Made by a program: the position numbers and the translations under genes. DNA of 64,000 nt from Bombyx mori (lineage: Eukaryota > Arthropoda > Insecta > Lepidoptera > Bombycidae): NCBI RefSeq assembly GCF_030269925.1, contig NC_085128.1, positions 11,534,501 through 11,598,500 on the forward strand. Reading direction: 5' to 3'. Shown here piece by piece: positions 1 to 58,201 of this stretch. The notes below the pieces were generated by a model. It made no database searches. It was given only the letters and a program-made list of their open reading frames with translations, and had not been told where the DNA came from. Position 1 is the stretch's first letter, and every line of letters starts with the position of its first letter.

Positions 1-3000
1 GGATAAACCTACTTCAGATCCAAGTGGTAAGTTTCCATAAAAATGTTGACAAATGCCGTCTATGTAATAATACAGTGTAATGTAAACGCTCTTTTTTGCT
101 ACAGCATCTGCCGCATCGACGACCGATACATCTGTAACGGATAAACCTACTTCAGATCCAAGTGGTAAGTTTCCATAAAAATGTTGACAAATGCCGTCTT
201 AGTAATGATACAGGTTAATGTAAACACTCTCTTTTGTAACAGCATCTGCCGCGTCCACGACAGACAAATCTGTAACGGATAAACCTACTTCAGATCCAAG
301 TGGTAAGTTTCCATAAAAATGTTGACAAATGCCGTCTTAGTAATGATACAGGTTAATGTAAACACTCTCTTTTGTTACAGCATCTGCCGCGTCCACGACA
401 GACAAATCTGTAACGGATAAACCTACTTCAGATCCAAGTGGTAAGTTTCCATAAAAACTTGAACAAGTACCGTCTTAATAATGATACAGTGTAATGTAAT
501 CGCTTTCTTTTGTGATAGCATCTGCCGCATCGACGACCGATACATCTGTAACGGATAAACCTACTTCAGATCCAAGTGGTAAGTTTCCATAAAAAGGTTG
601 ACAATTACCGTCTATGTAATAATACAGTGTAATGTAAACGCTCTCTTTTGTTACAGCATCTGCCGCATCCACGACAGACAAATCTGTAACGGATAAACCT
701 ACTTCAGATCCAAGTGGTAAGTTTCCACCACAACGTTGAAAATGTTTGTCTAGTTAATGTTATAGTGTAATGTAAACGCTCTCTTTTGTTACAGCATCTG
801 CCGCATCGACGACCGATATATCTGTAACGGATAAACCTACTTCAGATCCAAGTGGTAAGTTTCCATAAAAATGTTGACAAATGCCGTCTTAGTAATGATA
901 CAGGTTAATGTAAACACTCTCTTTTGTTACAGCATCTGCCGCGTCCACGACAGACAAATCTTTAACGGATAAACCTACTTCAGATCAAAGTGGTAAGCTT
1001 CCATAAAAACTTGAACAAATGCCGTCTTAGTAATGATACAGTGTAATGTAATCGCTTTCTTTTGTGATAGCCTCTGCCGCATCGACGACCGGTACATCTG
1101 TAACGGACAAACCTACTTCAGATCCAAGTGGTAAGTTTCCATAAAAACTTGAACAAATGCCGTCTTAGTAATGATACAGTGTAATGTAATCGCTTTCTTT
1201 TGTGATAGCATCTGCCGCATCGACGACCGATACATCTGTAACGGATAAACCTACTTCAGATCCAAGTGGTAAGTTTCCATAAAAATGTTGACAAATGCCG
1301 TCTTAGTAATGATACAGGTTAATTTAACGCTCTCTTTTGTTACAGCATCTGCCGCATCGACGACCGATACATCTGTAACGGATAATCCTACTTCAGATCC
1401 AAGTGGTAATTTTCCATAAAAATGTTGACAAATGCCGTCTTAGTAATGATACAGGTTAATGTAAACGCTCTCTTTTGTTACAGCGTCTGCCGCATCCACG
1501 ACAGACAAATCTGTAACGGATAAACCTACTTCAGATCCAAGTGGTAAGTTTCCATAAAAATTTTGACAAATGCCGTCTTAGTAATGATACAAGTTAATGT
1601 TAACGCTCTCTTTTGTTATAGCATCTGCCGCATCCACGACCGATACATCTGTAACGGATAAACCTACTTCAGATCCAAGTGGTAAGTTTCTACCACAACG
1701 TTGAAAATTTTTGTCTAGTTAATGTTATAGTGTAATTTAAAAGCTCTCTTTTGTTATAGCATCCGCCGCATCCACGACAGACAAATCTGTAACGGATAAA
1801 CCTATTTCAGATCCAAGTGGTAAGTTTCCATAAAAATTTTGACAAATGCCGTATTAGTAATGATACAGGGTAATGTAAACGCTCTCTTTTGTTACAGCAT
1901 CTGCCGCATCGACGACCGATACATCTGTAACGGATAAACCTACTTCAGATCAAAGTGGTAAGTTTCCATAAAAACTTGAACAAATGCCGTCTTAGTAATG
2001 ATACAGGGTAATGTAAACGCTCTCTTTTGTTACAGCATCTGCCACATCCACGACAGACAAATCTGTAACGGATAAACCTACTTCAGATCCAAGTGGTAAG
2101 TTTCCATAAAAATGTTGACCATTACCGTCTATGTAATAATACAGTGTAATGTAATCGTTTTCTTTTGTTACAGCATCTGCCGCATCCACGACCGATACAT
2201 CTGTAACGGATAAACCTACTTCAGATCAAAGTGGTAAGTTTCCATAAAAATGTTGACAAATGCCGTCTTAGTGATGATACAGGGTAATGTAAATGCTCTC
2301 TTTTGTTACAGCATCTACCGCATCGACGACCGATACATCTGTAACGGACAAACCTACTTCAGATCCAAGTGGTAAGTTTCCATAAAAATGTTGACCATTA
2401 CCGTCTATGTAATAATACAGTGTAATGTAATCGTTTTCTTTTGTTACAGCATCTGCCGCATCCACGACCGATACATCTGTAACGGATAAACCTACTTCAG
2501 ATCAAAGTGGTAAGTTTCCATAAAAATGTTGACAAATGCCGTCTTAGTGATGATACAGGGTAATGTAAATGCTCTCTTTTGTTACAGCATCTACCGCATC
2601 GACGACCGATACATCTGTAACGGACAAACCTACTTCAGATCCAAGTGGTAAGTTTCCATAAAAAGGTTGACAATTACCGTCTATGTAATAATACAGTGTA
2701 ATGTAAACGCTCTCTTTTGTTACAGCATCTGCCGCATCCACGACAGACAAATCTGTAACGGATAAACCTACTTCAGATCCAAGTGGTAAGTTTCCATAAA
2801 AATGTTGACAATTACCGTCTATGTAATAATACAGTGTAATGTAATCGTTTTCTTTTGTTACAGCATCTGCCGCATCCACGACCGATACATCTGTAACGGA
2901 TAAACCTACTTCAGATCAAAGTGGTAAGTTTCCATAAAAATGTTGACAAATGCCGTCTTAGTGATGATACAGGGTAATGTAAATGCTCTCTTTTGTTACA

Positions 3001-6000
3001 GCATCTACCGCATCGACGACCGATACATCTGTAACGGACAAACCTACTTCAGATCCAAGTGGTAAGTTTCCATAAAAAGGTTGACAATTACCGTCTATGT
3101 AATAATACAGTGTAATGTAAACGCTCTCTTTTGTTACAGCATCTGCCGCATCCACGACAGACAAATCTGTAACGGATAAACCTACTTCAGATCCAAGTGG
3201 TAAGTTTCCATAAAAATGTTGACAATTACCGTCTATGTAATAATACAGTGTAATGTAATCGTTTTCTTTTGTTACAGCATCTGCCGCATCCACGACCGAT
3301 ACATCTGTAACGGATAAACCTACTTCAGATCCAAGTGGTAAGTTTCTACCACAACGTTGAAAATTTTTGTCTAGATAATGTTATAGTGTAATTTAAAAGC
3401 TCTCTTTTGTTCTAGCATCCGCCGCATCCACGACAGACAAATCTGTAACGGATAAACCTATTTCAGATCCAAGTGGTAAGTTTCCATAAAAATTTTGACA
3501 AATGCCGTATTAGTAATGATACAGGGTAATGTAAACGCTCTCTTTTGTTACAGCATCTACCGCATCGACGACCGATACATCTGTAACGGATAAACCTACT
3601 TCAGATCCAAGTGGTAAGTTTCCATAAAAATGTTGACAAATGCCGTCTTAGTAATGATACAGGTTAATGTAAACACTCTCTTTTGTTACAGCATCTGCCG
3701 CGTCCACGACAGACAAATCTGTAACGGATAAACCTACTTCAGATCCAAGTGGTAAGTTTCCATAAAAACTTGAACAAGTACCGTCTTAATAATGATACAG
3801 TGTAATGTAATCGCTTTCTTTTGTGATAGCATCTGCCGCATCGACGACCGATACATCTGTAACGGATAAACCTACTTCAGATCCAAGTGGTAAGTTTCCA
3901 TAAAAAGGTTGACAATTACCGTCTATGTAATAATACAGTGTAATGTAAACGCTCTCTTCTGTTACAGCATCTGCCGCATCCACGACAGACAAATCTGTAA
4001 CGGATAAACCTACTTCAGATCCAAGTGGTAAGTTTCCACCACAACGTTGAAAATGTTTGTCTAGTTAATGTTATAGTGTAATGTAAACGCTCTCTTTTGT
4101 TACAGCATCTGCCGCGTCCACGACAGACAAATCTGTAACGGATAAACCTACTTCAGATCCAAGTGGTAAGTTTCCATAAAAACTTGAACAAGTACCGTCT
4201 TAATAATGATACAGTGTAATGTAATCGCTTTCTTTTGTGATAGCATCTGCCGCATCGACGACCGATACATCTGTAACGGATAAACCTACTTCAGATCCAA
4301 GTGGTAAGTTTCCATAAAAAGGTTGACAATTACCGTCTATGTAATAATACAGTGTAATGTAAACGCTCTCTTTTGTTACAGCATCTGCCGCATCCACGAC
4401 AGACAAATCTGTAACGGATAAACCTACTTCAGATCCAAGTGGTAAGTTTCCACCACAACGTTGAAAATGTTTGTCTAGTTAATGTTATAGTGTAATGTAA
4501 ACGCTCTCTTTTGTTACAGCATCTGCCGCATCGACGACCGATATATCTGTAACGGATAAACCTACTTCAGATCCAAGTGGTAAGTTTCCATAAAAATGTT
4601 GACAAATGCCGTCTTAGTAATGATACAGGTTAATGTAAACACTCTCTTTTGTTACAGCATCTGCCGCGTCCACGACAGACAAATCTTTAACGGATAAACC
4701 TACTTCAGATCAAAGTGGTAAGCTTCCATAAAAACTTGAACAAATGCCGTCTTAGTAATGATACAGTGTAATGTAATCGCTTTCTTTTGTGATAGCCTCT
4801 GCCGCATCGACGACCGGTACATCTGTAACGGACAAACCTACTTCAGATCCAAGTGGTAAGTTTCCATAAAAACTTGAACAAATGCCGTCTTAGTAATGAT
4901 ACAGTGTAATGTAATCGCTTTCTTTTGTGATAGCATCTGCCGCATCGACGACCGATACATCTGTAACGGATAAACCTACTTCAGATCCAAGTGGTAAGTT
5001 TCCATAAAAATGTTGACAAATGCCGTCTTAGTAATGATACAGGTTAATTTAACGCTCTCTTTTGTTACAGCATCTGCCGCATCGACGACCGATACATCTG
5101 TAACGGATAATCCTACTTCAGATCCAAGTGGTAATTTTCCATAAAAATGTTGACAAATGCCGTCTTAGTAATGATACAGGTTAATGTAAACGCTCTCTTT
5201 TGTTACAGCGTCTGCCGCATCCACGACAGACAAATCTGTAACGGATAAACCTACTTCAGATCCAAGTGGTAAGTTTCCATAAAAATTTTGACAAATGCCG
5301 TCTTAGTAATGATACAAGTTAATGTTAACGCTCTCTTTTGTTATAGCATCTGCCGCATCCACGACCGATACATCTGTAACGGATAAACCTACTTCAGATC
5401 CAAGTGGTAAGTTTCTACCACAACGTTGAAAATTTTTGTCTAGTTAATGTTATAGTGTAATTTAAAAGCTCTCTTTTGTTATAGCATCCGCCGCATCCAC
5501 GACAGACAAATCTGTAACGGATAAACCTATTTCAGATCCAAGTGGTAAGTTTCCATAAAAATTTTGACAAATGCCGTATTAGTAATGATACAGGGTAATG
5601 TAAACGCTCTCTTTTGTTACAGCATCTGCCGCATCGACGACCGATACATCTGTAACGGATAAACCTACTTCAGATCAAAGTGGTAAGTTTCCATAAAAAC
5701 TTGAACAAATGCCGTCTTAGTAATGATACAGGGTAATGTAAACGCTCTCTTTTGTTACAGCATCTGCCACATCCACGACAGACAAATCTGTAACGGATAA
5801 ACCTACTTCAGATCCAAGTGGTAAGTTTCCATAAAAATGTTGACCATTACCGTCTATGTAATAATACAGTGTAATGTAATCGTTTTCTTTTGTTACAGCA
5901 TCTGCCGCATCCACGACCGATACATCTGTAACGGATAAACCTACTTCAGATCAAAGTGGTAAGTTTCCATAAAAATGTTGACAAATGCCGTCTTAGTGAT

Positions 6001-9000
6001 GATACAGGGTAATGTAAATGCTCTCTTTTGTTACAGCATCTACCGCATCGACGACCGATACATCTGTAACGGACAAACCTACTTCAGATCCAAGTGGTAA
6101 GTTTCCATAAAAATGTTGACCATTACCGTCTATGTAATAATACAGTGTAATGTAATCGTTTTCTTTTGTTACAGCATCTGCCGCATCCACGACCCATACA
6201 TCTGTAACGGATAAACCTACTTCAGATCAAAGTGGTAAGTTTCCATAAAAATGTTGACAAATGCCGTCTTAGTGATGATACAGGGTAATGTAAATGCTCT
6301 CTTTTGTTACAGCATCTACCGCATCGACGACCGATACATCTGTAACGGACAAACCTACTTCAGATCCAAGTGGTAAGTTTCCATAAAAAGGTTGACAATT
6401 ACCGTCTATGTAATAATACAGTGTAATGTAAACGCTCTCTTTTGTTACAGCATCTGCCGCATCCACGACAGACAAATCTGTAACGGATAAACCTACTTCA
6501 GATCCAAGTGGTAAGTTTCCATAAAAATGTTGACAATTACCGTCTATGTAATAATACAGTGTAATGTAATCGTTTTCTTTTGTTACAGCATCTGCCGCAT
6601 CCACGACCGATACATCTGTAACGGATAAACCTACTTCAGATCAAAGTGGTAAGTTTCCATAAAAATGTTGACAAATGCCGTCTTAGTGATGATACAGGGT
6701 AATGTAAATGCTCTCTTTTGTTACAGCATCTACCGCATCGACGACCGATACATCTGTAACGGACAAACCTACTTCAGATCCAAGTGGTAAGTTTCCATAA
6801 AAAGGTTGACAATTACCGTCTATGTAATAATACAGTGTAATGTAAACGCTCTCTTTTGTTACAGCATCTGCCGCATCCACGACAGACAAATCTGTAACGG
6901 ATAAACCTACTTCAGATCCAAGTGGTAAGTTTCCATAAAAATGTTGACAATTACCGTCTATGTAATAATACAGTGTAATGTAATCGTTTTCTTTTGTTAC
7001 AGCATCTGCCGCATCCACGACCGATACATCTGTAACGGATAAACCTACTTCAGATCCAAGTGGTAAGTTTCTACCACAACGTTGAAAATTTTTGTCTAGA
7101 TAATGTTATAGTGTAATTTAAAAGCTCTCTTTTGTTCTAGCATCCGCCGCATCCACGACAGACAAATCTGTAACGGATAAACCTATTTCAGATCCAAGTG
7201 GTAAGTTTCCATAAAAATTTTGACAAATGCCGTATTAGTAATGATACAGGGTAATGTAAACGCTCTCTTTTGTTACAGCATCTACCGCATCGACGACCGA
7301 TACATCTGTAACGGATAAACCTACTTCAGATCCAAGTGGTAAGTTTCCATAAAAATGTTGACAAATGCCGTCTTAGTAATGATACAGGTTAATGTAAACA
7401 CTCTCTTTTGTTACAGCATCTGCCGCGTCCACGACAGACAAATCTGTAACGGATAAACCTACTTCAGATCCAAGTGGTAAGTTTCCATAAAAACTTGAAC
7501 AAGTACCGTCTTAATAATGATACAGTGTAATGTAATCGCTTTCTTTTGTGATAGCATCTGCCGCATCGACGACCGATACATCTGTAACGGATAAACCTAC
7601 TTCAGATCCAAGTGGTAAGTTTCCATAAAAAGGTTGACAATTACCGTCTATGTAATAATACAGTGTAATGTAAACGCTCTCTTCTGTTACAGCATCTGCC
7701 GCATCCACGACAGACAAATCTGTAACGGATAAACCTACTTCAGATCCAAGTGGTAAGTTTCCACCACAACGTTGAAAATGTTTGTCTAGTTAATGTTATA
7801 GTGTAATGTAAACGCTCTCTTTTGTTACAGCATCTGCCGCATCGACGACCGATATATCTGTAACGGATAAACCTACTTCAGATCCAAGTGGTAGGTTTCC
7901 ATAAAAAGGTTGACAATTACCGTCTATGTAATAATACAGTGTAATGTAAACGCTCTCTTTTGTTACAGCATCTGCCACATCCACGACAGACAAATCTGTA
8001 ACGGATAAACCTACTTCAGATCCAAGTGGTAAGTTTCCATAAAAAGGTTGACAATTACCGTCTATGTAATGATACAGGGTAATGTAAACGCTCTCTTTTG
8101 TTACAGCATCTACCGCATCGACGACCGATACATCTGTAACGGATAAACCTACTTCAGATCCAAGTGGTAGGTTTCCATAAAAAGGTTGACAATTACCGTC
8201 TATGTAATAATACAGTGTAATGTAAACGCTCTCTTTTGTTACAGCATCTGCCGCATCCACGACAGACAAATCTGTAACGGATAAACCTACTTCAGATCCA
8301 AGTGGTAAGTTTCCACCACAACGTTGAAAATGTTTGTCTAGTTAATGTTATAGTGTAATGTAAACGCTCTCTTTTGTTACAGCATCTGCCGCATCGACGA
8401 CCGATATATCTGTAACGGATAAACCTACTTCAGATCCAAGTGGTAAGTTTCCATAAAAATGTTGACAAATGCCGTCTTAGTAATGATACAGGTTAATGTA
8501 AACACTCTCTTTTGTTACAGCGTCTGCCGCATCCACGACAGACAAATCTGTAACGGATAAACCTACTTCAGATCCAAGTGGTAAGTTTCCATAAAAATTT
8601 TGACAAATGCCGTCTTAGTAATGATACAAGTTAATGTTAACGCTCTCTTTTGTTATAGCATCTGCCGCATCCACGACCGATACATCTGTAACGGATAAAC
8701 CTACTTCAGATCCAAGTGGTAAGTTTCTACCACAACGTTGAAAATTTTTGTCTAGATAATGTTATAGTGTAATTTAAAAGCTCTCTTTTGTTCTAGCATC
8801 CGCCGCATCCACGACAGACAAATCTGTAACGGATAAACCTATTTCAGATCCAAGTGGTAAGTTTCCATAAAAATTTTGACAAATGCCGTATTAGTAATGA
8901 TACAGGGTAATGTAAACGCTCTCTTTTGTTACAGCATCTACCGCATCGACGACCGATACATCTGTAACGGACAAACCTACTTCAGATCCAAGTGGTAAGT

Positions 9001-12000
9001 TTCCATAAAAAGGTTGACAATTACCGTCTATGTAATAATACAGTGTAATGTAAACGCTCTCTTTTGTTACAGCATCTGCCGCATCCACGACAGACAAATC
9101 TGTAACGGATAAACCTACTTCAGATCCAAGTGGTAAGTTTCCACCACAACGTTGAAAATGTTTGTCTAGTTAATGTTATAGTGTAATGTAAACGCTCTCT
9201 TTTGTTACAGCATCTGCCGCATCGACGACCGATATATCTGTAACGGATAAACCTACTTCAGATCCAAGTGGTAAGTTTCCATAAAAAGGTTGACAATAAC
9301 CGTCTATGTAATGATACAGGGTAATGTAAACGCTCTCTTTTGTTACAGCATCTACCGCATCGACGACCGATACATCTGTAACGGATAAACCTACTTCAGA
9401 TCCAAGTGGTAGGTTTCCATAAAAAGGTTGACAATTACCGTCTATGTAATAATACAGTGTAATGTAAACGCTCTCTTTTGTTACAGCATCTGCCACATCC
9501 ACGACAGACAAATCTGTAACGGATAAACCTACTTCAGATCCAAGTGGTAAGTTTCCATAAAAAGGTTGACAATTACCGTCTATGTAATGATACAGGGTAA
9601 TGTAAACGCTCTCTTTTGTTACAGCATCTACCGCATCGACGACCGATACATCTGTAACGGATAAACCTACTTCAGATCCAAGTGGTAGGTTTCCATAAAA
9701 AGGTTGACAATTACCGTCTATGTAATAATACAGTGTAATGTAAACGCTCTCTTTTGTTACAGCATCTGCCGCATCCACGACAGACAAATCTGTAACGGAT
9801 AAACCTACTTCAGATCCAAGTGGTAAGTTTCCACCACAACGTTGAAAATGTTTGTCTAGTTAATGTTATAGTGTAATGTAAACGCTCTCTTTTGTTACAG
9901 CATCTGCCGCATCGACGACCGATATATCTGTAACGGATAAACCTACTTCAGATCCAAGTGGTAAGTTTCCATAAAAATGTTGACAAATGCCGTCTTAGTA
10001 ATGATACAGGTTAATGTAAACACTCTCTTTTGTTACAGCGTCTGCCGCATCCACGACAGACAAATCTGTAACGGATAAACCTACTTCAGATCCAAGTGGT
10101 AAGTTTCCATAAAAATTTTGACAAATGCCGTCTTAGTAATGATACAAGTTAATGTTAACGCTCTCTTTTGTTATAGCATCTGCCGCATCCACGACCGATA
10201 CATCTGTAACGGATAAACCTACTTCAGATCCAAGTGGTAAGTTTCTACCACAACGTTGAAAATTTTTGTCTAGATAATGTTATAGTGTAATTTAAAAGCT
10301 CTCTTTTGTTCTAGCATCCGCCGCATCCACGACAGACAAATCTGTAACGGATAAACCTATTTCAGATCCAAGTGGTAAGTTTCCATAAAAATTTTGACAA
10401 ATGCCGTATTAGTAATGATACAGGGTAATGTAAACGCTCTCTTTTGTTACAGCATCTACCGCATCGACGACCGATACATCTGTAACGGACAAACCTACTT
10501 CAGATCCAAGTGGTAAGTTTCCATAAAAAGGTTGACAATTACCGTCTATGTAATAATACAGTGTAATGTAAACGCTCTCTTTTGTTACAGCATCTGCCGC
10601 ATCCACGACAGACAAATCTGTAACGGATAAACCTACTTCAGATCCAAGTGGTAAGTTTCCACCACAACGTTGAAAATGTTTGTCTAGTTAATGTTATAGT
10701 GTAATGTAAACGCTCTCTTTTGTTACAGCATCTGCCGCATCGACGACCGATATATCTGTAACGGATAAACCTACTTCAGATCCAAGTGGTAAGTTTCCAT
10801 AAAAATGTTGACAAATGCCGTCTTAGTAATGATACAGGTTAATGTAAACACTCTCTTTTGTTACAGCATCTGCCGCGTCCACGACAGACAAATCTGTAAC
10901 GGATAAACCTACTTCAGATCCAAGTGGTAAGTTTCCACCACAACGTTGAAAATGTTTGTCTAGTTAATGTTATAGTGTAGTGTAAACGCTCTCTTTTGTT
11001 ACAGCATCTGCCGCATCGACGACCGATACATCTGTAACGGATAAACCTACTTCAGATCCAAGTGGTAAGTTTCCATAAAAATGTTGACAAATGCCGTCTT
11101 AGTAATGATACAGGTTAATGTAAACACTCTCTTTTGTTACAGCATCTGCCGCGTCCACGACAGACAAATCTGTAACGGATAAACCTACTTCAGATCCAAG
11201 TGGTAAGTTTCCATAAAAACTTGAACAAGTACCGTCTTAATAATGATACAGTGTAATGTAATCGCTTTCTTTTGTGATAGCATCTGCCGCATCGACGACC
11301 GATACATCTGTAACGGATAAACCTACTTCAGATCCAAGTGGTAAGTTTCCATAAAAAGGTTGACAATTACCGTCTATGTAATAATACAGTGTAATGTAAA
11401 CGCTCTCTTCTGTTACAGCATCTGCCGCATCCACGACAGACAAATCTGTAACGGATAAACCTACTTCAGATCCAAGTGGTAAGTTTCCACCACAACGTTG
11501 AAAATGTTTGTCTAGTTAATGTTATAGTGTAATTTAAAAGCTCTCTTTTGTTATAGCATCCGCCGCATCCACGACAGACAAATCTGTAACGGATAAACCT
11601 ATTTCAGATCCAAGTGGTAAGTTTCCATAAAAATTTTGACAAATGCCGTATTAGTAATGATACAGGGTAATGTAAACGCTCTCTTTTGTTACAGCATCTG
11701 CCGCATCGACGACCGATACATCTGTAACGGATAAACCTACTTCAGATCAAAGTGGTAAGTTTCCATAAAAACTTGAACAAATGCCGTCTTAGTAATGATA
11801 CAGGGTAATGTAAACTCCCCCCGGTGAAGGTCAAGGGGCGACCTGAGGGGGTGAGGCCGCGCGGCGCGCTACCAGCACTCTAGCGCGCTGCCGTGGAGTG
11901 AATAGAGCGACCGGTCGACGGTGTATCGCGTCCCGACCCGGCAGGCTGGTTCTGGTCCAGCGGGGTATTCCGGGACACCAGCGGCACCGTCTGGGCGGCC

Positions 12001-15000
12001 CGACGGGCTGCCGTACCGAGACGGCCGACGTTTCAGAGCCTTCGATTCGCCTCGAAGGCTCCGTCGGCTGGGCGTCCTTGGGGTGAGCCGCGCCGTCTGG
12101 TTGTAGTGTTGACCGCGGTAGCCCCCCTACCTCATCCGGGTTCTGACCTCGGAGGGGATCGGACGTCGGGTGTAAGAGTGCAGAGGAGTCGTTTAGTGGG
12201 TGGGCTCTAAAATCCTTGGGCCCGCGGTCTGCTCACAACACCATGCAGATCGTTGAGTCTCACATACCCCGCGCGCCCCTTTTGCGCGGGGACCTCGTAG
12301 GAGGTTCGGCCCTCTACCCGAAAAAAAAAAAAAAAAAAGGGTAATGTAAACGCTCTCTTTTGTTACAGCATCTGCCACATCCACGACAGACAAATCTGTA
12401 ACGGATAAACCTACTTCAGATCCAAGTGGTAAGTTTCCATAAAAATGTTGACCATTACCGTCTATGTAATAATACAGTGTAATGTAATCGTTTTCTTTTG
12501 TTACAGCATCTGCCGCATCCACGACCGATACATCTGTAACGGATAAACCTACTTCAGATCAAAGTGGTAAGTTTCCATAAAAATGTTGACAAATGCCGTC
12601 TTAGTGATGATACAGGGTAATGTAAATGCTCTCTTTTGTTACAGCATCTACCGCATCGACGACCGATACATCTGTAACGGACAAACCTACTTCAGATCCA
12701 AGTGGTAAGTTTCCATAAAAATGTTGACCATTACCGTCTATGTAATAATACAGTGTAATGTAATCGTTTTCTTTTGTTACAGCATCTGCCGCATCCACGA
12801 CCGATACATCTGTAACGGATAAACCTACTTCAGATCAAAGTGGTAAGTTTCCATAAAAATGTTGACAAATGCCGTCTTAGTGATGATACAGGGTAATGTA
12901 AATGCTCTCTTTTGTTACAGCATCTACCGCATCGACGACCGATACATCTGTAACGGACAAACCTACTTCAGATCCAAGTGGTAAGTTTCCATAAAAAGGT
13001 TGACAATTACCGTCTATGTAATAATACAGTGTAATGTAAACGCTCTCTTTTGTTACAGCATCTGCCGCATCCACGACAGACAAATCTGTAACGGATAAAC
13101 CTACTTCAGATCCAAGTGGTAAGTTTCCATAAAAATGTTGACAATTACCGTCTATGTAATAATACAGTGTAATGTAATCGTTTTCTTTTGTTACAGCATC
13201 TGCCGCATCCACGACCGATACATCTGTAACGGATAAACCTACTTCAGATCAAAGTGGTAAGTTTCCATAAAAATGTTGACAAATGCCGTCTTAGTGATGA
13301 TACAGGGTAATGTAAATGCTCTCTTTTGTTACAGCATCTACCGCATCGACGACCGATACATCTGTAACGGACAAACCTACTTCAGATCCAAGTGGTAAGT
13401 TTCCATAAAAAGGTTGACAATTACCGTCTATGTAATAATACAGTGTAATGTAAACGCTCTCTTTTGTTACAGCATCTGCCGCATCCACGACAGACAAATC
13501 TGTAACGGATAAACCTACTTCAGATCCAAGTGGTAAGTTTCCATAAAAATGTTGACAATTACCGTCTATGTAATAATACAGTGTAATGTAATCGTTTTCT
13601 TTTGTTACAGCATCTGCCGCATCCACGACCGATACATCTGTAACGGATAAACCTACTTCAGATCCAAGTGGTAAGTTTCTACCACAACGTTGAAAATTTT
13701 TGTCTAGATAATGTTATAGTGTAATTTAAAAGCTCTCTTTTGTTCTAGCATCCGCCGCATCCACGACAGACAAATCTGTAACGGATAAACCTATTTCAGA
13801 TCCAAGTGGTAAGTTTCCATAAAAATTTTGACAAATGCCGTATTAGTAATGATACAGGGTAATGTAAACGCTCTCTTTTGTTACAGCATCTACCGCATCG
13901 ACGACCGATACATCTGTAACGGATAAACCTACTTCAGATCCAAGTGGTAAGTTTCCATAAAAATGTTGACAAATGCCGTCTTAGTAATGATACAGGTTAA
14001 TGTAAACACTCTCTTTTGTTACAGCATCTGCCGCGTCCACGACAGACAAATCTGTAACGGATAAACCTACTTCAGATCCAAGTGGTAAGTTTCCATAAAA
14101 ACTTGAACAAGTACCGTCTTAATAATGATACAGTGTAATGTAATCGCTTTCTTTTGTGATAGCATCTGCCGCATCGACGACCGATACATCTGTAACGGAT
14201 AAACCTACTTCAGATCCAAGTGGTAAGTTTCCATAAAAAGGTTGACAATTACCGTCTATGTAATAATACAGTGTAATGTAAACGCTCTCTTCTGTTACAG
14301 CATCTGCCGCATCCACGACAGACAAATCTGTAACGGATAAACCTACTTCAGATCCAAGTGGTAAGTTTCCACCACAACGTTGAAAATGTTTGTCTAGTTA
14401 ATGTTATAGTGTAATGTAAACGCTCTCTTTTGTTACAGCATCTGCCGCATCGACGACCGATATATCTGTAACGGATAAACCTACTTCAGATCCAAGTGGT
14501 AGGTTTCCATAAAAAGGTTGACAATTACCGTCTATGTAATAATACAGTGTAATGTAAACGCTCTCTTTTGTTACAGCATCTGCCACATCCACGACAGACA
14601 AATCTGTAACGGATAAACCTACTTCAGATCCAAGTGGTAAGTTTCCATAAAAAGGTTGACAATTACCGTCTATGTAATGATACAGGGTAATGTAAACGCT
14701 CTCTTTTGTTACAGCATCTACCGCATCGACGACCGATACATCTGTAACGGATAAACCTACTTCAGATCCAAGTGGTAGGTTTCCATAAAAAGGTTGACAA
14801 TTACCGTCTATGTAATAATACAGTGTAATGTAAACGCTCTCTTTTGTTACAGCATCTGCCGCATCCACGACAGACAAATCTGTAACGGATAAACCTACTT
14901 CAGATCCAAGTGGTAAGTTTCCACCACAACGTTGAAAATGTTTGTCTAGTTAATGTTATAGTGTAATGTAAACGCTCTCTTTTGTTACAGCATCTGCCGC

Positions 15001-18000
15001 ATCGACGACCGATATATCTGTAACGGATAAACCTACTTCAGATCCAAGTGGTAAGTTTCCATAAAAATGTTGACAAATGCCGTCTTAGTAATGATACAGG
15101 TTAATGTAAACACTCTCTTTTGTTACAGCGTCTGCCGCATCCACGACAGACAAATCTGTAACGGATAAACCTACTTCAGATCCAAGTGGTAAGTTTCCAT
15201 AAAAATTTTGACAAATGCCGTCTTAGTAATGATACAAGTTAATGTTAACGCTCTCTTTTGTTATAGCATCTGCCGCATCCACGACCGATACATCTGTAAC
15301 GGATAAACCTACTTCAGATCCAAGTGGTAAGTTTCTACCACAACGTTGAAAATTTTTGTCTAGATAATGTTATAGTGTAATTTAAAAGCTCTCTTTTGTT
15401 CTAGCATCCGCCGCATCCACGACAGACAAATCTGTAACGGATAAACCTATTTCAGATCCAAGTGGTAAGTTTCCATAAAAATTTTGACAAATGCCGTATT
15501 AGTAATGATACAGGGTAATGTAAACGCTCTCTTTTGTTACAGCATCTACCGCATCGACGACCGATACATCTGTAACGGACAAACCTACTTCAGATCCAAG
15601 TGGTAAGTTTCCATAAAAAGGTTGACAATTACCGTCTATGTAATAATACAGTGTAATGTAAACGCTCTCTTTTGTTACAGCATCTGCCGCATCCACGACA
15701 GACAAATCTGTAACGGATAAACCTACTTCAGATCCAAGTGGTAAGTTTCCACCACAACGTTGAAAATGTTTGTCTAGTTAATGTTATAGTGTAATGTAAA
15801 CGCTCTCTTTTGTTACAGCATCTGCCGCATCGACGACCGATATATCTGTAACGGATAAACCTACTTCAGATCCAAGTGGTAAGTTTCCATAAAAAGGTTG
15901 ACAATAACCGTCTATGTAATGATACAGGGTAATGTAAACGCTCTCTTTTGTTACAGCATCTACCGCATCGACGACCGATACATCTGTAACGGATAAACCT
16001 ACTTCAGATCCAAGTGGTAGGTTTCCATAAAAAGGTTGACAATTACCGTCTATGTAATAATACAGTGTAATGTAAACGCTCTCTTTTGTTACAGCATCTG
16101 CCACATCCACGACAGACAAATCTGTAACGGATAAACCTACTTCAGATCCAAGTGGTAAGTTTCCATAAAAAGGTTGACAATTACCGTCTATGTAATGATA
16201 CAGGGTAATGTAAACGCTCTCTTTTGTTACAGCATCTACCGCATCGACGACCGATACATCTGTAACGGATAAACCTACTTCAGATCCAAGTGGTAGGTTT
16301 CCATAAAAAGGTTGACAATTACCGTCTATGTAATAATACAGTGTAATGTAAACGCTCTCTTTTGTTACAGCATCTGCCGCATCCACGACAGACAAATCTG
16401 TAACGGATAAACCTACTTCAGATCCAAGTGGTAAGTTTCCACCACAACGTTGAAAATGTTTGTCTAGTTAATGTTATAGTGTAATGTAAACGCTCTCTTT
16501 TGTTACAGCATCTGCCGCATCGACGACCGATATATCTGTAACGGATAAACCTACTTCAGATCCAAGTGGTAAGTTTCCATAAAAATGTTGACAAATGCCG
16601 TCTTAGTAATGATACAGGTTAATGTAAACACTCTCTTTTGTTACAGCGTCTGCCGCATCCACGACAGACAAATCTGTAACGGATAAACCTACTTCAGATC
16701 CAAGTGGTAAGTTTCCATAAAAATTTTGACAAATGCCGTCTTAGTAATGATACAAGTTAATGTTAACGCTCTCTTTTGTTATAGCATCTGCCGCATCCAC
16801 GACCGATACATCTGTAACGGATAAACCTACTTCAGATCCAAGTGGTAAGTTTCTACCACAACGTTGAAAATTTTTGTCTAGATAATGTTATAGTGTAATT
16901 TAAAAGCTCTCTTTTGTTCTAGCATCCGCCGCATCCACGACAGACAAATCTGTAACGGATAAACCTATTTCAGATCCAAGTGGTAAGTTTCCATAAAAAT
17001 TTTGACAAATGCCGTATTAGTAATGATACAGGGTAATGTAAACGCTCTCTTTTGTTACAGCATCTACCGCATCGACGACCGATACATCTGTAACGGACAA
17101 ACCTACTTCAGATCCAAGTGGTAAGTTTCCATAAAAAGGTTGACAATTACCGTCTATGTAATAATACAGTGTAATGTAAACGCTCTCTTTTGTTACAGCA
17201 TCTGCCGCATCCACGACAGACAAATCTGTAACGGATAAACCTACTTCAGATCCAAGTGGTAAGTTTCCACCACAACGTTGAAAATGTTTGTCTAGTTAAT
17301 GTTATAGTGTAATGTAAACGCTCTCTTTTGTTACAGCATCTGCCGCATCGACGACCGATATATCTGTAACGGATAAACCTACTTCAGATCCAAGTGGTAA
17401 GTTTCCATAAAAATGTTGACAAATGCCGTCTTAGTAATGATACAGGTTAATGTAAACACTCTCTTTTGTTACAGCATCTGCCGCGTCCACGACAGACAAA
17501 TCTGTAACGGATAAACCTACTTCAGATCCAAGTGGTAAGTTTCCACCACAACGTTGAAAATGTTTGTCTAGTTAATGTTATAGTGTAGTGTAAACGCTCT
17601 CTTTTGTTACAGCATCTGCCGCATCGACGACCGATACATCTGTAACGGATAAACCTACTTCAGATCCAAGTGGTAAGTTTCCATAAAAATGTTGACAAAT
17701 GCCGTCTTAGTAATGATACAGGTTAATGTAAACACTCTCTTTTGTTACAGCATCTGCCGCGTCCACGACAGACAAATCTGTAACGGATAAACCTACTTCA
17801 GATCCAAGTGGTAAGTTTCCATAAAAACTTGAACAAGTACCGTCTTAATAATGATACAGTGTAATGTAATCGCTTTCTTTTGTGATAGCATCTGCCGCAT
17901 CGACGACCGATACATCTGTAACGGATAAACCTACTTCAGATCCAAGTGGTAAGTTTCCATAAAAAGGTTGACAATTACCGTCTATGTAATAATACAGTGT

Positions 18001-21000
18001 AATGTAAACGCTCTCTTCTGTTACAGCATCTGCCGCATCCACGACAGACAAATCTGTAACGGATAAACCTACTTCAGATCCAAGTGGTAAGTTTCCACCA
18101 CAACGTTGAAAATGTTTGTCTAGTTAATGTTATAGTGTAATGTAAACGCTCTCTTTTGTTACAGCATCTGCCGCATCGACGACCGATATATCTGTAACGG
18201 ATAAACCTACTTCAGATCCAAGTGGTAAGTTTCCATAAAAATGTTGACAAATGCCGTCTTAGTAATGATACAGGTTAATGTAAACACTCTCTTTTGTTAC
18301 AGCATCTGCCGCGTCCACGACAGACAAATCTGTAACGGATAAACCTACTTCAGATCCAAGTGGTAAGTTTCCATAAAAACTTGAACAAGTACCGTCTTAA
18401 TAATGATACAGTGTAATGTAATCGCTTTCTTTTGTGATAGCATCTGCCGCATCGACGACCGATACATCTGTAACGGATAAACCTACTTCAGATCCAAGTG
18501 GTAAGTTTCCATAAAAAGGTTGACAATTACCGTCTATGTAATAATACAGTGTAATGTAATCGCTTTCTTTTGTTACAGCATCTGCCGCATCGACGACCGA
18601 TACATCTGTAACGGATAAACCTACTTCAGATCCAAGTGGTAAGTTTCCATAAAAATGTTGACAAATGCCGTCTTAGTGATGATACAGGGTAATGTAAACG
18701 CTCTCTTTTGTTACAGCATCTACCGCATCGACGACCGATACATCTGTAACGGATAAACCTACTTCAGATCCAAGTGGTAAGTTTCCATAAAAATGTTGAC
18801 AAATGCCGTCTTAGTAATGATACAGGTTAATGTAAACACTCTCTTTTGTTACAGCATCTGCCGCGTCCACGACAGACAAATCTGTAACGGATAAACCTAC
18901 TTCAGATCCAAGTGGTAAGTTTCCATAAAAACTTGAACAAGTACCGTCTTAATAATGATACAGTGTAATGTAATCGCTTTCTTTTGTGATAGCATCTGCC
19001 GCATCGACGACCGATACATCTGTAACGGATAAACCTACTTCAGATCCAAGTGGTAAGTTTCCATAAAAATGTTGACAAATGCCGTCTTAGTAATGATACA
19101 GGTTAATGTAAACACTCTCTTTTGTTACAGCATCTGCCGCGTCCACGACAGACAAATCTGTAACGGATAAACCTACTTCAGATCCAAGTGGTAAGTTTCC
19201 ATAAAAAGGTTGACAATTACCGTCTATGTAATAATACAGTGTAATGTAATCGCTTTCTTTTGTTACAGCATCTGCCGCATCGACGACCGATACATCTGTA
19301 ACGGATAAACCTACTTCAGATCCAAGTGGTAAGTTTCCATAAAAATGTTGACAAATGCCGTCTTAGTAATGATACAGGTTAATGTAAACACTCTCTTTTG
19401 TTACAGCATCTGCCGCGTCCACGACAGACAAATCTGTAACGGATAAACCTACTTCAGATCCAAGTGGTAAGTTTCCATAAAAATGTTGACAAATGCCGTC
19501 TTAGTCATGATAAAGTATAATGTAATCGCTCTCTTTTGTTACAGCATCTGCCGCATCGACGACCGATACATCTGTAACGGATAAACCTACTTCAGATCCA
19601 AGTGGTAAGTTTCCATAAAAAGGTTGACAATTACCGTCTATGTAATAATACAGTGTAATGTAATCGCTTTCTTTTGTTACAGCATCTGCCGCATCGACGA
19701 CCGATACATCTGTAACGGATAAACCTACTTCAGATCCAAGTGGTAAGTTTCCATAAAAATGTTGACAAATGCCGTCTTAGTGATGATACAGGGTAATGTA
19801 AACGCTCTCTTTTGTTACAGCATCTACCGCATCGACGACCGATACATCTGTAACGGACAAACCTACTTCAGATCCAAGTGGTAAGTTTCCATAAAAAAGT
19901 TGACAATTACCGTCTATGTAATAATACAGTGTAATGTAAACGCTCTCTTTTGTTACAGCATCTGCCGCATCCACGACAGACAAATCTGTAACGGATAAAC
20001 CTACTTCAGATCCAAGTGGTAAGTTTCCACCACAACGTTGAAAATGTTTGTCTAGTTAATGTTATAGTGTAATGTAAACGCTCTCTTTTGTTACAGCATC
20101 TGCCGCATCGACGACCGATACATCTGTAACGGATAAACCTACTTCAGATCCAAGTGGTAAGTTTCCATAAAAATGTTGACAAATGCCGTCTTAGTAATGA
20201 TAGAGGGTAATGTAAACGCTCTCTTTTGTTACAGCATCTGCCGCATCGACGACCGATACATCTGTAACGGATAAACCTACTTCAGATCCAAGTGGTAAGT
20301 TTCCATAAAAATGTTGACAAATGCCGTCTTAGTCATGATAAAGTATAATGTAATCGCTTTCTTTTGTTATAGCATCTGCCGCATCCACGACAGACAAATC
20401 TGTAACGGATAAACCTACTTCAGATCCAAGTGGTAAGTTTCCATAAAAATGTTGACAAATGCCGTCTTAGTAATGATACAGGGTAATGTAAACGCTCTCT
20501 TTTGTTACAGCGTCTGCCGCATCCACGACAGACAAATCTGTAACGGATAAACCTACTTCAGATCCAAGTGGTAAGTTTCCATAAAAATGTTGACAAATGC
20601 CGTCTTAGTAATGATACAGGTTAATGTAAACGCTCTCTTTTGTTATAGCATCTGCCGCATCCACGACCGATACATTTGTAACGGATAAACCTACTTCAGA
20701 TCCAAGTGGTAAGTTTCCATAAAAACTTTGACAAATGCCGTCTTAGTCATGATAAAGTATAGTATAATCGCTTTCTTTTGTTATAGCATCTGCCGCATCG
20801 ACGACAGACAAATCTGTAACGGATAAACCTACTTCAGATCAAAGTGGTAAGTTTCCATAAAAATGTTGACAAATGCCGTCTTAGTAATGATACAGGTTAA
20901 TGTAAACGCTCTCTTTTGTTATAGCATCTGCTGCATCCACGACCGATACATCTGTAACGGATAAACCCACTTCAGATCCAAGTGGTAAGTTTCCATAAAA

Positions 21001-22641
21001 ATGTTGACAAATGCCGTCTTAGTAATGATACAGGGTAATGTTAACGCTCTCTTTTGTTACAGCATCTGCCGCATCGACGACCGATACATCTTTAACGGAA
21101 AAACCGACTTCAAATCCAAGTGGTAAGTTTCCATAAAAACGTTGACAAATACCGTATAGGTAGTGATACAGTGTAATGTAATCGCTCTCTTTGGTTATAG
21201 CATCTGCCGCATCGACGACAGATAAATCTGTAACGGATAAACCGACTTCAGATCCAAGTGGTAAGTTTCCATAAAAACGTTGACAAATACCGTATAGGTA
21301 ATGATACAGTGTAATGTAATCGCTCTCTTTGGTTATAGCATCTGCCGCATCGACGACAAATAAATCTGTAACGGATAAACCCACTTCAGATCCAAGTGGT
21401 AAGTTTCCATAAAAACGTTGACAAATGCCGTCTTAGTCATGATAAAGTATAATGTAATCGCTTTCTTTTGTTATAGCATCTGCCGCATCGACGACAGATA
21501 AATCTGTAACGGATAAACCGACTTCAGATCCAAATGGTAAGTTTCCATAAAAACGTTGACAAATACCGTATAGGTAGTGATACAGTGTAATGTAATCGCT
21601 TTCTTTTGTGATAGCATCTGCCGCATCCACGACAGACAAATCTGTAACGGATAAACCTACTTCAGATCCAAGTGGTAAGTTTCCATAAAAACGTTGACAA
21701 ATACCGTATAGGTAGTGATACAGTGTAATGTAATCGCTCTCTTTGGTTATAGCATCTGCCGCATCCACGACCGATACATCTGTAACGGATAAACCCACTT
21801 CAGATCCAAGTGGTAAGTTTCCATAAAAATGTTGACAAATGCCGTCTTAGTCATGATAAAGTATAATGTAATCGCTTTCTTTTGTTATAGCATCTGCCGC
21901 ATCGACGACAGACAAATCTGTAACGGATAAACCTACTTCAGATCAAAGTGGTAAGTTTCCATAAAAATGTTGACAAATGCCGTCTTAGTAATGATACAGG
22001 GTAATGTTAACGCTCTCTTTTGTTACAGCATCTGCCGCATCGACGACCGATACATCTTTAACGGAAAAACCGACTTCAAATCCAAGTGGTAAGTTTCCAT
22101 AAAAACGTTGACAAATACCGTATAGGTAGTGATACAGTGTAATGTAATCGCTCTCTTTGGTTATAGCATCTGCCGCATCGACGACAGATAAATCTGTAAC
22201 GGATAAACCGACTTCAGATCCAAATAGTAAGTTTCCATAAAAACGTTGACAAATACCGTATAGGTAGTGATACAGTGTAATGTAATCGCTCTCTTTGGTT
22301 TATAGCATCTGCCGCATCCACGACCGATACATTTGTAACGGACAAACCTACTTCAGATCCAAGTGGTAAGTTTCCATAAAAAGGTTGACAATTACCGTCT
22401 TAGTAATGATACAGGGTAATGTAAACACTCTCTTTTGTTACAGCATCTGCCGCGTCCACGACAGACAAATCTGTAACGGATAAATCTACTTCAGATCCAA
22501 GTGGTAAGTTTCCATAAAAACTTGAACAAGTACCGTCTTAATAATGATACAGTATAATGTAATCGCTTTCTTTTGTTACAGCATCTGCCGCATCGACGAC
22601 TGATAAATCTGTAATGGATAAACCTACTTCAGATCCAACTG
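1..22641 (+). CDS. Array of 160 complete 60-nt phase-1 micro-exons (20-aa repeat)
   Basis: Each 138-bp unit contains a pyrimidine-rich acceptor (CTCTCTTTTGTTACAG), a 60-nt exon and a donor (GTAAGTTT). The first complete exon is 105-164 and the last is 22582-22641; bases 1-26 are the end of an earlier one. Of three phases only one is open: the last G of an exon plus the first CA of the next makes an Ala codon. The repeat reads [20 protein letters not shown], with 10 of 20 residues Ser or Thr, three Asp and one or two Lys. Main variants are Thr or Lys at position 9, Pro or Gln at position 19, and Ala or Thr at position 3. Acceptor variants (TTATAG, GATAG, TTCTAG) and donor variants (GTAGGT, GTAATT, GTAAGC) all keep AG and GT. 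No exon I read has an in-phase stop. Ser/Thr-rich repeats of this kind are typical of O-glycosylated mucins and sericin-like glue proteins; that role is inferred. Confidence 0.72.
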
Positions 22642-25600
22642 GTAAGTAATCATGTTACAGTGGAAGTTTCCACGTATCTAAACTAAGCCGGCCATTTTTT
22701 AAACTGTTATTCTTGTGTTCTATAAATCATTATGACACCATCTACTCCGAAACCTGTGACTGACAAACCCACGTTAGATCCAAGCTAGATCCGTTAAAAC
22801 ATTCAGATTTCTTCGTATTAAAATGAAACTGCCAGCTTATTTTTATCTCCTTACTTAATGCTCTCTTTATGTGTAATTTTTTTTGTAACTTAGATGGGTG
22901 GACGAGGTCATAGCCTACCTGGTGTTAAGTGGTTACTGGAGCCCATGGACATCTACGACGTAAATGCGCCACCCACCTTGAGATATAAGTTCTAAGGTCT
23001 CAAGTATAGTTACAACAGCTGCCCCACCCTTTAAACCGAAACGCATTACCTACTCGCGCGGACTCACACGAGGTCCTACTACCAGTAATTACGCAAATTA
23101 AAATTTGCGGGTTTGATTTTTATTACACGATGCTATTCCTTCACCGTGAAAGTCGAGGACTCGAGAACATTTGTTGAGTACGTATTTCATTAGAAAAATT
23201 GGTACCCGCCTGGTATTCGAACGTTCATTCGAACATTCGTTTTGAGCGATGTCCGGACGTCTTATCCTTTAGGCCACGACGACTTGAAATTTTGTTTGTC
23301 ATGTTCTTTATTTCTTTTTAGAACAAAACATGTCAACAGTAGTGCAGCCAATGATCGTACGAACTACAACTGATTCGACTGGTTAGTTACAATGTTTAAT
23401 CCTTCGCTATTAAAATACTGTCATTATTGTTTGTGGACATAATTATTTGAAAATACATTAAAAAACGTTATTATAACGGGTAAGATTTAAGACGAAAAAA
23501 GTATAATTACTCGTCTGTTTAAAAAAAAAAAAAAACTTGTTTTTTTAAATAAAATGTAAACTTGGAACATAGCACGGCAATAAAGAAGCCTTATTTTTAC
23601 TCATTTTATGATTAGCAGTTTCAAATGAAAGTCTTATTCAACGACTACCATACGAGCTCTTGACAATATCAACGCTTTAGTCAATTAACTTATGTATATA
23701 ATTGAAGTTCAAAGATACTTAAAACATTGGTTACAGAACCCACAACCGAAGAAACTCCAGGAGAAAGTGAAGGTAAGTTAATATATTGTATATTATTATT
23801 AGCTAAATATTTTGATCAGACTAAGAAAATGCGCTGAATGTACTTATAGTTGAATTAATAGTAGTGGACTTGACTGTCTTTTATTAGTTACTTGAATGTC
23901 ATTGGCATCGCATTCATTGATTATTCAATTATTTATTGATTCGATGTTATTGTCTAATGCTACTGCTCCACCTGCCTAAGCGCTAACGTTATTGTTAATG
24001 GCGAACTACGCCTTAATACACAACACTCACAATGGAGCTTGAAGCAGCTGCCTAGTTGCGACAATGAGCGTCATAAATTATTTTATGCATTCATGCAATT
24101 TAAAAAGAGAGAATGTGGGATTGCAGCTTTGAATTCCAACGACACGGCTTTAATAAAATTCTAACGCCTTTTCATTTGACCACTCCATTGTTGTTGTCGT
24201 ATGTACCTAAATGCAGTTCCCGCCTAAAACAAAGTGCACGCGTCCTTGCTATGCGCGCGCGTCCTGTTATATCCCTACATAGCATACAATAATGTTTACC
24301 AAACATCAACATCAGCATTTATTCCCGATGATGATTTCTAGCTAGCTTTTTAAAGCAGTTCGGGTCAGACTTTCATCGGAGTGGGACGTATACCGAGTTT
24401 TCCTCACTTTCCCTATAAATAATATAAACTTAGTCTAGGGAGTATTAAAAGTGTTTTTTAAAAAGAAGTTCCTAGTTTCAATTCTAACAATCCGATAGAA
24501 TGAGACGGCGTTAGGCTAAGTTCATATATGATCGCGCGGTACTGCGCGTCACCGCGCGGGGTGGAAGCGTTCACATGACAGAATTATGTACGCCCGAGAG
24601 TCTGGCATCAACATTGATTGAGAATGGACGTGGAGGAAGCAATTTGCTTATTAATTTTAAACCGAAAATTGAGACGTCGGAGAAAAAGACAAAGATGATA
24701 CTGGGTGCATGCTATTTTAATTAAAAGACTTTTTTCAAGCCTGTTTGTAACTTTATATCCCGACCTGAGACTACACGAACAAATTTTTTTTAACTACCTA
24801 CTTTAGGATGTCATTTGCATCTTTTGATTTTTTATATGATTGCGTTAAAAACTATTTAAAATCGATAGACGCGATATTATCGTCTGCGCTAAGTACTCAT
24901 TTTTCTTTGATCTATGCGTCTGTCCATCTCAAGCCGCGAAGATCAGCTGAACAGGTAGATACAGTTTTGCAGAACCTGTACCGCGTGTGTGTAATATGTG
25001 AACAATAAACACTGCTTAGATTGATCTTGTACCGCACGGTACCGCGCGGTCATGTGAACTTAGCCTAAATGTAGTCAACGTCAATTATTATTAGCGCGCT
25101 AAACTACACGCTAAAACCCTTTGATGTGTCAAAAAAACCGATACTCGAGTTATTGCTTAACGTTTAACGCCATTAATAATGCCATTTGTTTTTAACACAT
25201 TAAAACGTTGGCCACATCTACGTAGCGCCTATATTAATGGAGCAGTAGAATAAGATAATCAAAAAATTCATTACATTATCTTCCAGTAGGACGTTAGAGC
25301 CTGTAGTAGCAGTAGTAGTAGGGGCGCTCCGCCAACCTAATGAAATTATAAACTTTTTCAGAAAATACAACAGAAGAACCGATGGAAACAGGTCAGTTAA
25401 TCTTTGAAATCTTTGAATTTTATTCTAGACTTTCCATCGCAATAGTTCAAAAATTGTAGTTAGTGGTTCCTTCTTAACATACATACTACACGATTATCAT
25501 CGCGGTAAAGTAGTACCAACCCTGAGTACTGGGCAAGGGCGACGGTTTCGATTCGTTTTCGACGAACAAGTTTATTTTGTCTTTGTCCGGGTGCTTAATA

Positions 25601-47622: not shown

Positions 47623-47640
47623 AAGCATTCTTTGCTGAAA

Positions 47641-47704
47641 ATGTTAAAGACGTTCTTGTTCGTAGCCTGTATCGCTAATGTGCTTCTAGTAGACTCTACT
47701 GAAG
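47641..47704 (+). CDS. TIL inhibitor gene exon 1, signal peptide
   Basis: ATG with A at -3 opens MLKTFLFVACIANVLLVDST, a classical signal peptide: Lys at position 3 followed by a hydrophobic core. The donor GTAAGC at 47705 leaves phase 1, matching every TIL exon downstream. The product is therefore secreted. A gene of this type (TIL domains behind one signal peptide) acts on serine proteases as a reversible inhibitor, or as a structural Cys-rich protein. Confidence 0.85.
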
Positions 47705-48433
47705 GTAAGCTTGCATTATAAATCTTACGAAATTGTGTGATAAGAGAAAACTGTTTTTTTTTTTAAATTCATACAGCACAAATTTAGACATCGCAATTAA
47801 TTTCTTTATTTTATAAAAAAAAAGTTGTTTAATATTTATATTCGAAAATTTTCATATTTATATTCAAAAAATCACGCAGCGAGACTGCGTAACAAAAAAA
47901 TTACTCAACAGAAGACCACTAACGAAATTAAAGAAATAAATCACTAAAATAAAGTTTTGGTGTTTTGTCTCAAGATGCCTCGTGATAAAATAAAAAAATC
48001 CCTCCCAAAAAAATCTGTTTGCTTACAAAAGACACTTTCTTATTTATTTTAGTAAAATACGTTGCATAAAAATTAACTATTATCCCTATATAACAACAAA
48101 TATTTCAAATGAATAAAATGTGAATAAAAATTGTCGTAAAGTTCTGGAACTTTCGACGAATTTCAAATAATGGTTCACCTTTTATTTTATTTGGGAATAG
48201 TTTTTTTTGACAGTGTTTTTTGGTCCGCCCTATGCACTTTATTTTATTGATATTTAATTTCTACATAAAACATGTATGCTAAAAGACCTCCGTGATAAAT
48301 AATAAGTCCCGATTAGTTTTCAATAAAGACTGGGGTGCCGTTATTCTAAATTCTAAAGCCACTGTCTCTCGCAACTAACCGGTAAAAATAATACCCAATA
48401 CCGTAATTAATACCATGAGAGTTGATACGGGAC

Positions 48434-49720: not shown

Positions 49721-49945
49721 ACATTCAAGATTTGGTCTCGGGCTTAGAATTTTTATATAAGTAGCTATTTCCTATGTTTCGAACTTATGGACGGTAGTTA
49801 ATGCAATTTTAAAATTTCTACACATGAAAACTGTAAGCTGTACCATAGCGCATCCAAAAAACAAATAACAACCTTTTTTAATTTAGCAAAACAACTTTGT
49901 GGCGAAAACGAAGAATCTTCAGATTGCGCCAATTGCTATGATAGT
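49502..49945 (+). repeat. Duplicated intron-plus-exon block, copy 1
   Basis: About 440 bp covering the end of an intron and the start of a TIL exon are repeated at 59651-60091 with few substitutions and two short indels (near 49697/59847 and 49760/59912). The duplicated part stays collinear to the point where the second copy is interrupted by an R1-clade LINE. Confidence 0.9.
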
Positions 49946-50219
49946 CCAGATTGTTGTGTGGATCCTATGGTTTTTTTTTTTTTTTTTTTTTATGATTGAA
50001 GGATTACTGGTGGCCCGGAGGCCTTTCCAGTTTCACCAGGAAAGGTGGGCGAGCAAAGGCTCAGCCAGGAGGGGTGGGATTTGCTAACAGCTACCCGAGC
50101 GCCTCCGAAGGAGACCTAACAGCTCAAGAGCAGCTGCTTCGCGAATGAATCTACTACCGGATCGGAATCGCGACCCGCTGAGAAGATCCGGCGAGAAACT
50201 CAGCGAGCTGATTCATGGG

Positions 50220-53096: not shown

Positions 53097-53099
53097 TGA

Positions 53100-56454: not shown

Positions 56455-56568
56455 GGTGCAAAGCCAGAAAATATTATAACATAATGGATTAACTATCTGG
56501 TCATATAAATGAATAATGCATTTGTATTCAAATTCAACCATTAATTTCTTTTACATTTTATTTATTAG

Positions 56569-57169: not shown

Positions 57170-57262
57170 GTCATACGGCCCACCTGAAGGTGAGTGGTTA
57201 CTGTCGCCCATGGACTTCGGCAATGCCAGGGGCAGAGCCAAGCCGCTGCGTACCGCAAAATA
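57170..57262 (-). mobile_element. Repeat tail, same family as 34200
   Basis: The core gtcatacggcccacctgaag to aatgccaggggcagagccaa is clear. Short fragment in a TIL intron. Confidence 0.65.
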
Positions 57263-58083: not shown

Positions 58084-58201
58084 GTGAGTACTTACAGTTA
58101 TTAGTAAATATTTCATAATTTATTTAGAACCGTTCATCCTCACTGTTTTTCTATTCTCTTATTCCTCTCGTATGTATGTTATTATGACTGGTCTCCATTT
58201 A

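Follow-up and report, generated by a model that had tools for sequence, protein, structure and literature searches.

The 64,000-nucleotide (nt) stretch of the Bombyx mori genome analyzed here (the window; contig NC_085128.1, positions 11,534,501 to 11,598,500, or C22:11534501-11598500) begins inside a tandem array of 138-bp units. Each unit holds a complete 60-nt exon with its own acceptor and donor, as is characteristic of tandemly repeated coding micro-exons. The exon is symmetric, and its phase (phase 1) matches that of modelled neighbors on both sides. These features suggest a genuine array of coding micro-exons within one gene, a reading to which we assign a probability of about 0.8. The weight lies in the match of the open stretch to the splice sites and to the phase of the downstream exons, together with a gradient of substitutions. 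That essentially all units would enter one mRNA is an evenly balanced proposition. The odds are likewise level for the complete proposal of one gene in which near-identical 60-nt copies make up 362 of approximately 385 exons, and whose single mRNA of approximately 24 kb would encode a secreted mucin-serpin of approximately 8,000 residues.

Anatomy of the array in the window

1..22641, + strand: 138-bp tandem array, a partial first unit followed by 160 complete ones (each a 78-nt intron and a 60-nt exon, phase 1 to 1)
22582..22641, + strand: final 60-nt repeat exon of the array

The array occupies base 1 to base 22,641 of the window, where 161 donors delimit 160 complete 60-nt exons. The order is AG, 60-nt exon, GT and then usually 78 nt. 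Acceptor AG is present in 160/160 units and donor GT in 160/160. The donor is GTAAGT in 148 units, GTAGGT in 8, GTAAGC in 2 and GTAATT in 2. An initial annotation, made from the letters of the window alone, had described the units as splice-competent micro-exons, and by sequence they are. It had also called them identical. There are 28 distinct exon sequences among the window units, so the units are near-identical rather than identical.

The phase that fits the downstream exons contains stops in 0/160 units, compared with 160/160 and 141/160 in the other two, which agrees with the earlier statement that only one phase is open. Array introns measure 78 nt (n=156), 77 nt (n=2), 79 nt (n=1) or 614 nt (n=1). 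In all of them (160/160) every reading frame is interrupted by stops, and an unspliced transcript therefore could not encode consecutive repeats. Where three length changes had been reported, all intronic, four were found; every one lies in an intron. RNA folding of one unit revealed no unusual structure (z 0.96).

Extent of the array in the genome

C22:11506736 to 11557141: entire array, 362 full units over 50,406 bp

A search of the genome (461.7 Mb, 30 contigs) located the remainder of the array, which extends approximately 27.8 kb upstream of the window edge. The initial estimate of about 160 units is accurate for the window and too low for the genome because the array runs off that edge. 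Across the whole array AG is present in 362/362 units and GT in 361/362, the remaining donor being GG. Stops occur in 0/362 units in the used phase and in 361/362 and 333/362 in the other two. Among the units, 55 different exon sequences and 124 unit types are distinguished. In the whole genome an exon pattern has 169 exact matches, all within this array. The exon-exon junction string CCAAGTG-CATCTGCC is absent from 184 kb of DNA at the locus. The predicted polypeptide of the array is 24.7% Ser, 23.0% Thr, 14.2% Asp and 9.3% Pro.

Substitution pattern

Parsimony steps were counted on 116 distinct units taken from the 350/362 units with a 78-nt intron. Intron sites outside the splice core changed 2.46 times per site, 4-fold sites 2.80 times and 0-fold sites 1.48 times. 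The four splice-core bases changed 0, 1, 0 and 0 times (mean 0.25; permutation P 0.021). Changes were in excess at codon position 3 (P 0.018). Nucleotide diversity is 0.023, 0.057 and 0.117 at codon positions 1-3 and 0.139 in introns. Restricted to the window, where 156 units were usable and 53 of them distinct, the count gave 0 steps in the splice core vs 5.4 expected, and introns differed from 0-fold sites (P 0.012). The substitutions are coding-like: introns vary about as much as 4-fold sites, 0-fold sites about half as much, and splice cores almost not at all, with modest P values. The unit structure unrelated to coding or splicing constraint that a non-coding satellite would display was not found in these per-site counts.

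Linker and serpin exons

23322..23381, + strand: linker exon 1, 60 nt, phase 1 to 1
23737..23772, + strand: linker exon 2, 36 nt, phase 1 to 1
25362..25391, + strand: linker exon 3, 30 nt, phase 1 to 1
30600..30715, + strand: serpin exon 1, 116 nt
30944..31087, + strand: serpin exon 2, 144 nt
31982..32164, + strand: serpin exon 3, 183 nt
32554..32649, + strand: serpin exon 4, 96 nt
33303..33440, + strand: serpin exon 5, 138 nt
34583..34801, + strand: serpin exon 6, 219 nt
36457..36604, + strand: serpin exon 7, 148 nt
38366..38490, + strand: last serpin exon, 125 nt, serpin-like C-terminus and stop

All 11 downstream exons (three linker, eight serpin) are phase-compatible with GT-AG sites. The serpin was completed to its stop codon without a frame break. 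The central proposal of the initial annotation, splice-competent micro-exons in the phase (1) of the linker and first serpin exons, held up in the sequence tests. Linker exon 1 is weakly similar to the repeat exon (24/60 bases; 129/10,000 shuffles were equally good). The window-only model comprises 171 exons and 170 introns, GT-AG in 170/170, with a single open frame of 3,630 residues.

A first serpin model, with junctions near 31920, 33240 and 36898, was out of phase and pseudogene-like; its boundaries were wrong. Alignment to solved and Battus serpins indicated that acceptors at 31982 and 33303 are in phase and stronger, and it placed the last exon at 38366; with these changes the pseudogene signs disappeared. 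The domain belongs to Pfam PF00079 (E 2.5e-31, profile 10-318 of 370) as scored on an earlier 422-residue draft; the C-terminal exon was located after that scan. The best PDB relative of the draft is serpin K (1sek, E 1e-20). The draft also served as query for protein-database searches up to the 569-1811 residue range, and the final model was used at 1397-4445 residues and against its own genome. The genome search, with 18 candidates scored, returned the serpin itself and one weak match on another contig, C28 (23% identity, E 1.9e-5).

Inhibitory serpins carry an EEGTEAAAA-like hinge. Inspected by eye, the reactive-loop region does not fit this canonical hinge. The serpin is divergent and probably non-inhibitory. 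A transposase-like open reading frame (ORF), mariner-like by eye, lies at window 29606-30325 in the intron that separates linker exon 3 from serpin exon 1. A second, similar one is found in sequence piece L011.

Upstream exons and gene model

C22:11483023-11572990: modelled gene, approximately 90 kb

Upstream of the array the candidates are seven Thr-rich phase-1-to-1 exons, each 48-60 nt long. The 48-nt first unit upstream is also phase 1 to 1 and has a weak acceptor. A scan of 92 kb for Thr-rich phase-1 exons (50% Ser/Thr/Pro) gave 15 matches on the forward strand vs 3 in the reverse-complement control; the 15 include alternative ends, and 5 lie far upstream and are probably chance matches. 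The control indicates that chance can produce such candidates too. The Thr-rich candidates are preceded on the 5' side by an acidic region and by a 61-nt exon; the latter would encode MKSLILFVALAHAVFIIHSA, signal-peptide-like by hydropathy only. Because the exons of this 5' part were chosen for openness and phase, it is provisional.

The full model has 385 exons and 384 introns, of which 381 are GT-AG, 2 GC-AG and 1 GG-AG. Its open frame of 8,006 residues has a stop only at the end, and the calculated mass is 789 kDa with an isoelectric point of 4.1. The model spans a 12.8-kb gap (11486871 to 11499648) that contains transposon-like ORFs and may hide exons. Within it lies a coiled-coil-like, exon-like stretch of 434 nt with DLKEKKEDLKDDLKEKK repeats (piece L010, 7508-7941; C22:11492008-11492441), whose Pfam scores are below cut-off (best Apolipoprotein, 29.5 of 90 bits). 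This stretch is entered in phase with the signal-peptide exons but leaves in phase 0, and it was omitted from the model as none of the listed candidates made a convincing partner for it. It could belong to a separate gene or serve as an alternative last exon.

Growth of the array

22739..22784, + strand: decayed relic unit directly 3' of the array, exon-like, no AG before and no GT after
11816..12338, + strand: retro-element-like insertion, 523 bp, poly(A) tail, inside the 614-nt intron 11755-12368

Blocks of units recur along the array. The longest is 38 identical consecutive units found 44 units apart; others are of 18, 14, 11 and 10 units. The 5' edge is the most diverged part. Its 12 units are all distinct, with exons 5.7% from consensus and introns 12.4% diverged (11 of the 12 units, those with 78-nt introns), and in all 12 the frame and splice sites are intact. 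At the 3' edge 26 of 33 units are distinct. The 523-bp insertion is flanked by a 13-bp target-site duplication, GGGTAATGTAAAC, at 11803 and 12339. It occurs once in the array, and near-identical copies are present elsewhere in the region at the locus. Repeats resembling Bm1 short interspersed elements are also present. The growth pattern fits unequal exchange of whole exon-intron units, with selection for a spliceable in-frame exon.

Evaluation of the gene model and its alternatives

Several observations weigh against a coding array spliced in full or limit the evidence for it. The sole unit of 362 with a broken donor (GG for GT) lies upstream of the window at C22:11533915-11533974. The single open phase is weak as an argument by itself, as 43/828 combinations of offset, frame and strand are stop-free in every unit (360 units tested), and the absence of stops is only mildly informative with 2.7 expected at the neutral rate. 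The absence of exon indels in the window is similarly weak alone (P 0.10). In the window alone the difference between 4-fold and 0-fold sites is not significant (P 0.15). The P values of the substitution tests are modest overall, and the tests are not independent events because units share descent by block duplication and perhaps by gene conversion. Variant types are 31 non-synonymous and 18 synonymous vs approximately 34 and 14 from mutation alone, which indicates weak amino-acid constraint. The 3' edge is no more diverged than the middle (intron 8.2% vs 9.3%), so old units are tested by the 5' edge only. Some 5' exons have weak sites, with a purine before AG and two GC donors, and their joining is provisional. 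Finally, protein-database searches over 232-738, 569-1811 and 1397-4445 residues (0.55-1.75 rule) returned no close homologue and only one distant serpin (Battus philenor, 24% identity, draft query). The two longer ranges scored only approximately 8,000 candidates sharing most words, and the length limits mean that a record of 8,006 residues would be missed.

Some of these points would be expected if one real micro-exon had been amplified as a satellite inside a gene, with most copies skipped and their sites and frame intact only because the copies are young. Skipping would be harmless since each exon is symmetric, and the upstream and downstream exons share phase 1, so that skipping all units would keep the frame. 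Block duplications of up to 38 identical units indicate recent growth, and the weak amino-acid constraint also fits such passive expansion. Against this reading, 0-fold sites vary about half as much as introns and 4-fold sites, splice cores hardly change, the divergent 5' units are intact and the relic beyond the 3' edge has decayed. We consider passive expansion unlikely, and the mild amino-acid constraint may be read as for a mucin-like region in which composition outweighs sequence.

That the array is an ordinary satellite, with splice-like motifs and an open phase by coincidence, is highly improbable. It does look like a minisatellite, and open frames over 60 nt are common. Against coincidence, a strong acceptor and donor bound the open stretch exactly, its phase fits the exons on either side, micro-exons of like size flank the array and the substitutions follow codons; the confinement of all 169 exact exon-pattern matches to this one array also argues against it. 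A gene of the proposed kind whose copy number was inflated or deflated during assembly is compatible with a coding array and likewise unlikely. Misassembly could have affected the identical blocks of 38 units (5.2 kb) and 18 units (2.5 kb), but 62/124 unit types occur once and provide many anchors, and the insert-bearing 614-nt intron also occurs once.

Proposed mechanism and implications

The array would be the coding core of one giant gene, in which each 138-bp unit pairs a symmetric phase-1-to-1 micro-exon of 60 nt with a 78-nt intron. Such units could be gained, lost or skipped with the frame kept, since exon length is divisible by three and the phase is the same at both exon ends. Unequal exchange and block duplication of these frame-neutral exon-intron units would therefore lengthen the protein in 20-residue steps. 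The predicted order in the mRNA is signal peptide, acidic region, Thr-rich segments, approximately 362 20-mers rich in Ser, Thr, Asp and Pro, three linkers and the serpin domain. Long tandem repeats rich in Ser, Thr and Pro are typical of mucins, and secretion is predicted from the signal-peptide-like exon of the provisional model. The product is probably a secreted, acidic, unstructured, heavily O-glycosylated polymer, mucin-like or sericin-like, joined to a serpin. It may function in silk coating, cuticle or peritrophic matrix.

Repeat-rich structural proteins usually hold their repeats in one large exon. Here the repeat domain seems to be made of hundreds of symmetric exons. Unequal exchange could alter their number, with breakpoints and indels falling in the introns. 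If so, individuals would differ in protein length by whole numbers of exons. If spliced as predicted, the approximately 360 near-identical consecutive introns, with almost no cue for the correct partner, would form a natural test of spliceosome fidelity. The unit with the GG donor offers a natural experiment on in-frame skipping of a single exon. Annotation pipelines could file such arrays as satellite DNA, and similar genes may therefore be hidden.

Neighboring features

Downstream of the serpin a secreted-type first exon (MLKTFLFVACIANVLLVDSTEG) lies at window 47623-47721. Four stretches matching the trypsin-inhibitor-like (TIL) domain (PF01826) were found at window 55110-58889, in 4 of the 7 non-serpin pieces scanned. 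The first exon and the TIL stretches beside the serpin appear to form a multi-TIL gene or cluster. Near-identical short Cys-containing coding pieces (...KQLCGENEESSDCANCYD) at window 49802-49984 and 59951-60089, approximately 10 kb apart with transposon-like sequence between them, look like a local duplication. The only Rfam match at gathering threshold is mir-2822, a silkworm microRNA, at window 50638-50704. It is opposite in strand to a long ORF that is retrotransposon-like by eye (50220-53099, minus strand), and this microRNA family may be transposon-derived.

Comparison with known systems

The Ser-rich repeats recall sericins, and the 20-mer of the array is not known as a sericin repeat. 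In open-access literature, surveyed mostly by title, no description of this gene was found. Like lepidopteran silk-associated serpins, the modelled protein has a serpin domain. Enrichment in the silk gland is reported for group F serpins and TIL inhibitors of the silkworm (PMC3278429). The link to silk, built by analogy on these silk-gland-enriched serpin groups and on the downstream TIL-domain exons, is circumstantial and carries little weight.

Tandemly repeated exons that encode a repeat have precedents in Schistosoma mansoni. By its title, Davis 1988 resembles the array in this respect and reportedly concerns tandemly repeated exons encoding 81-base repeats. The SmPoMuc genes of the same species, which belongs to a different phylum from the silkworm, were compared with the array by organization only. 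SmPoMuc exon 2 shares with the array a tiny exon tandemly repeated with its flanking introns and a mucin-type repeat (PMC2576457, PMC4015677). SmPoMuc is a multigene family with a 27-bp exon in units of approximately 1 kb and no more than 20 genomic copies; its transcripts contain up to 100 copies, which the authors ascribe to trans-splicing or exon repetition (PMC2576457). In contrast, the array has a 60-nt exon, 138-bp units, 362 genomic copies, one locus and a serpin tail.

The modelled gene shares a very high exon number with titin (connectin). Human titin has 363 exons, called the largest number in one article (PMC12198301), and 385 exons, if confirmed, would exceed it. Titin exons are diverse in size, the largest being 17,106 bp (PMC12198301), whereas 362/385 exons of the modelled gene are near-identical. 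We judge that the kind is known, as tandemly repeated symmetric micro-exons comparable to those of SmPoMuc, and that the array is an extreme new variant of it whose scale, compact 138-bp unit and serpin tail have no precedent known to us.

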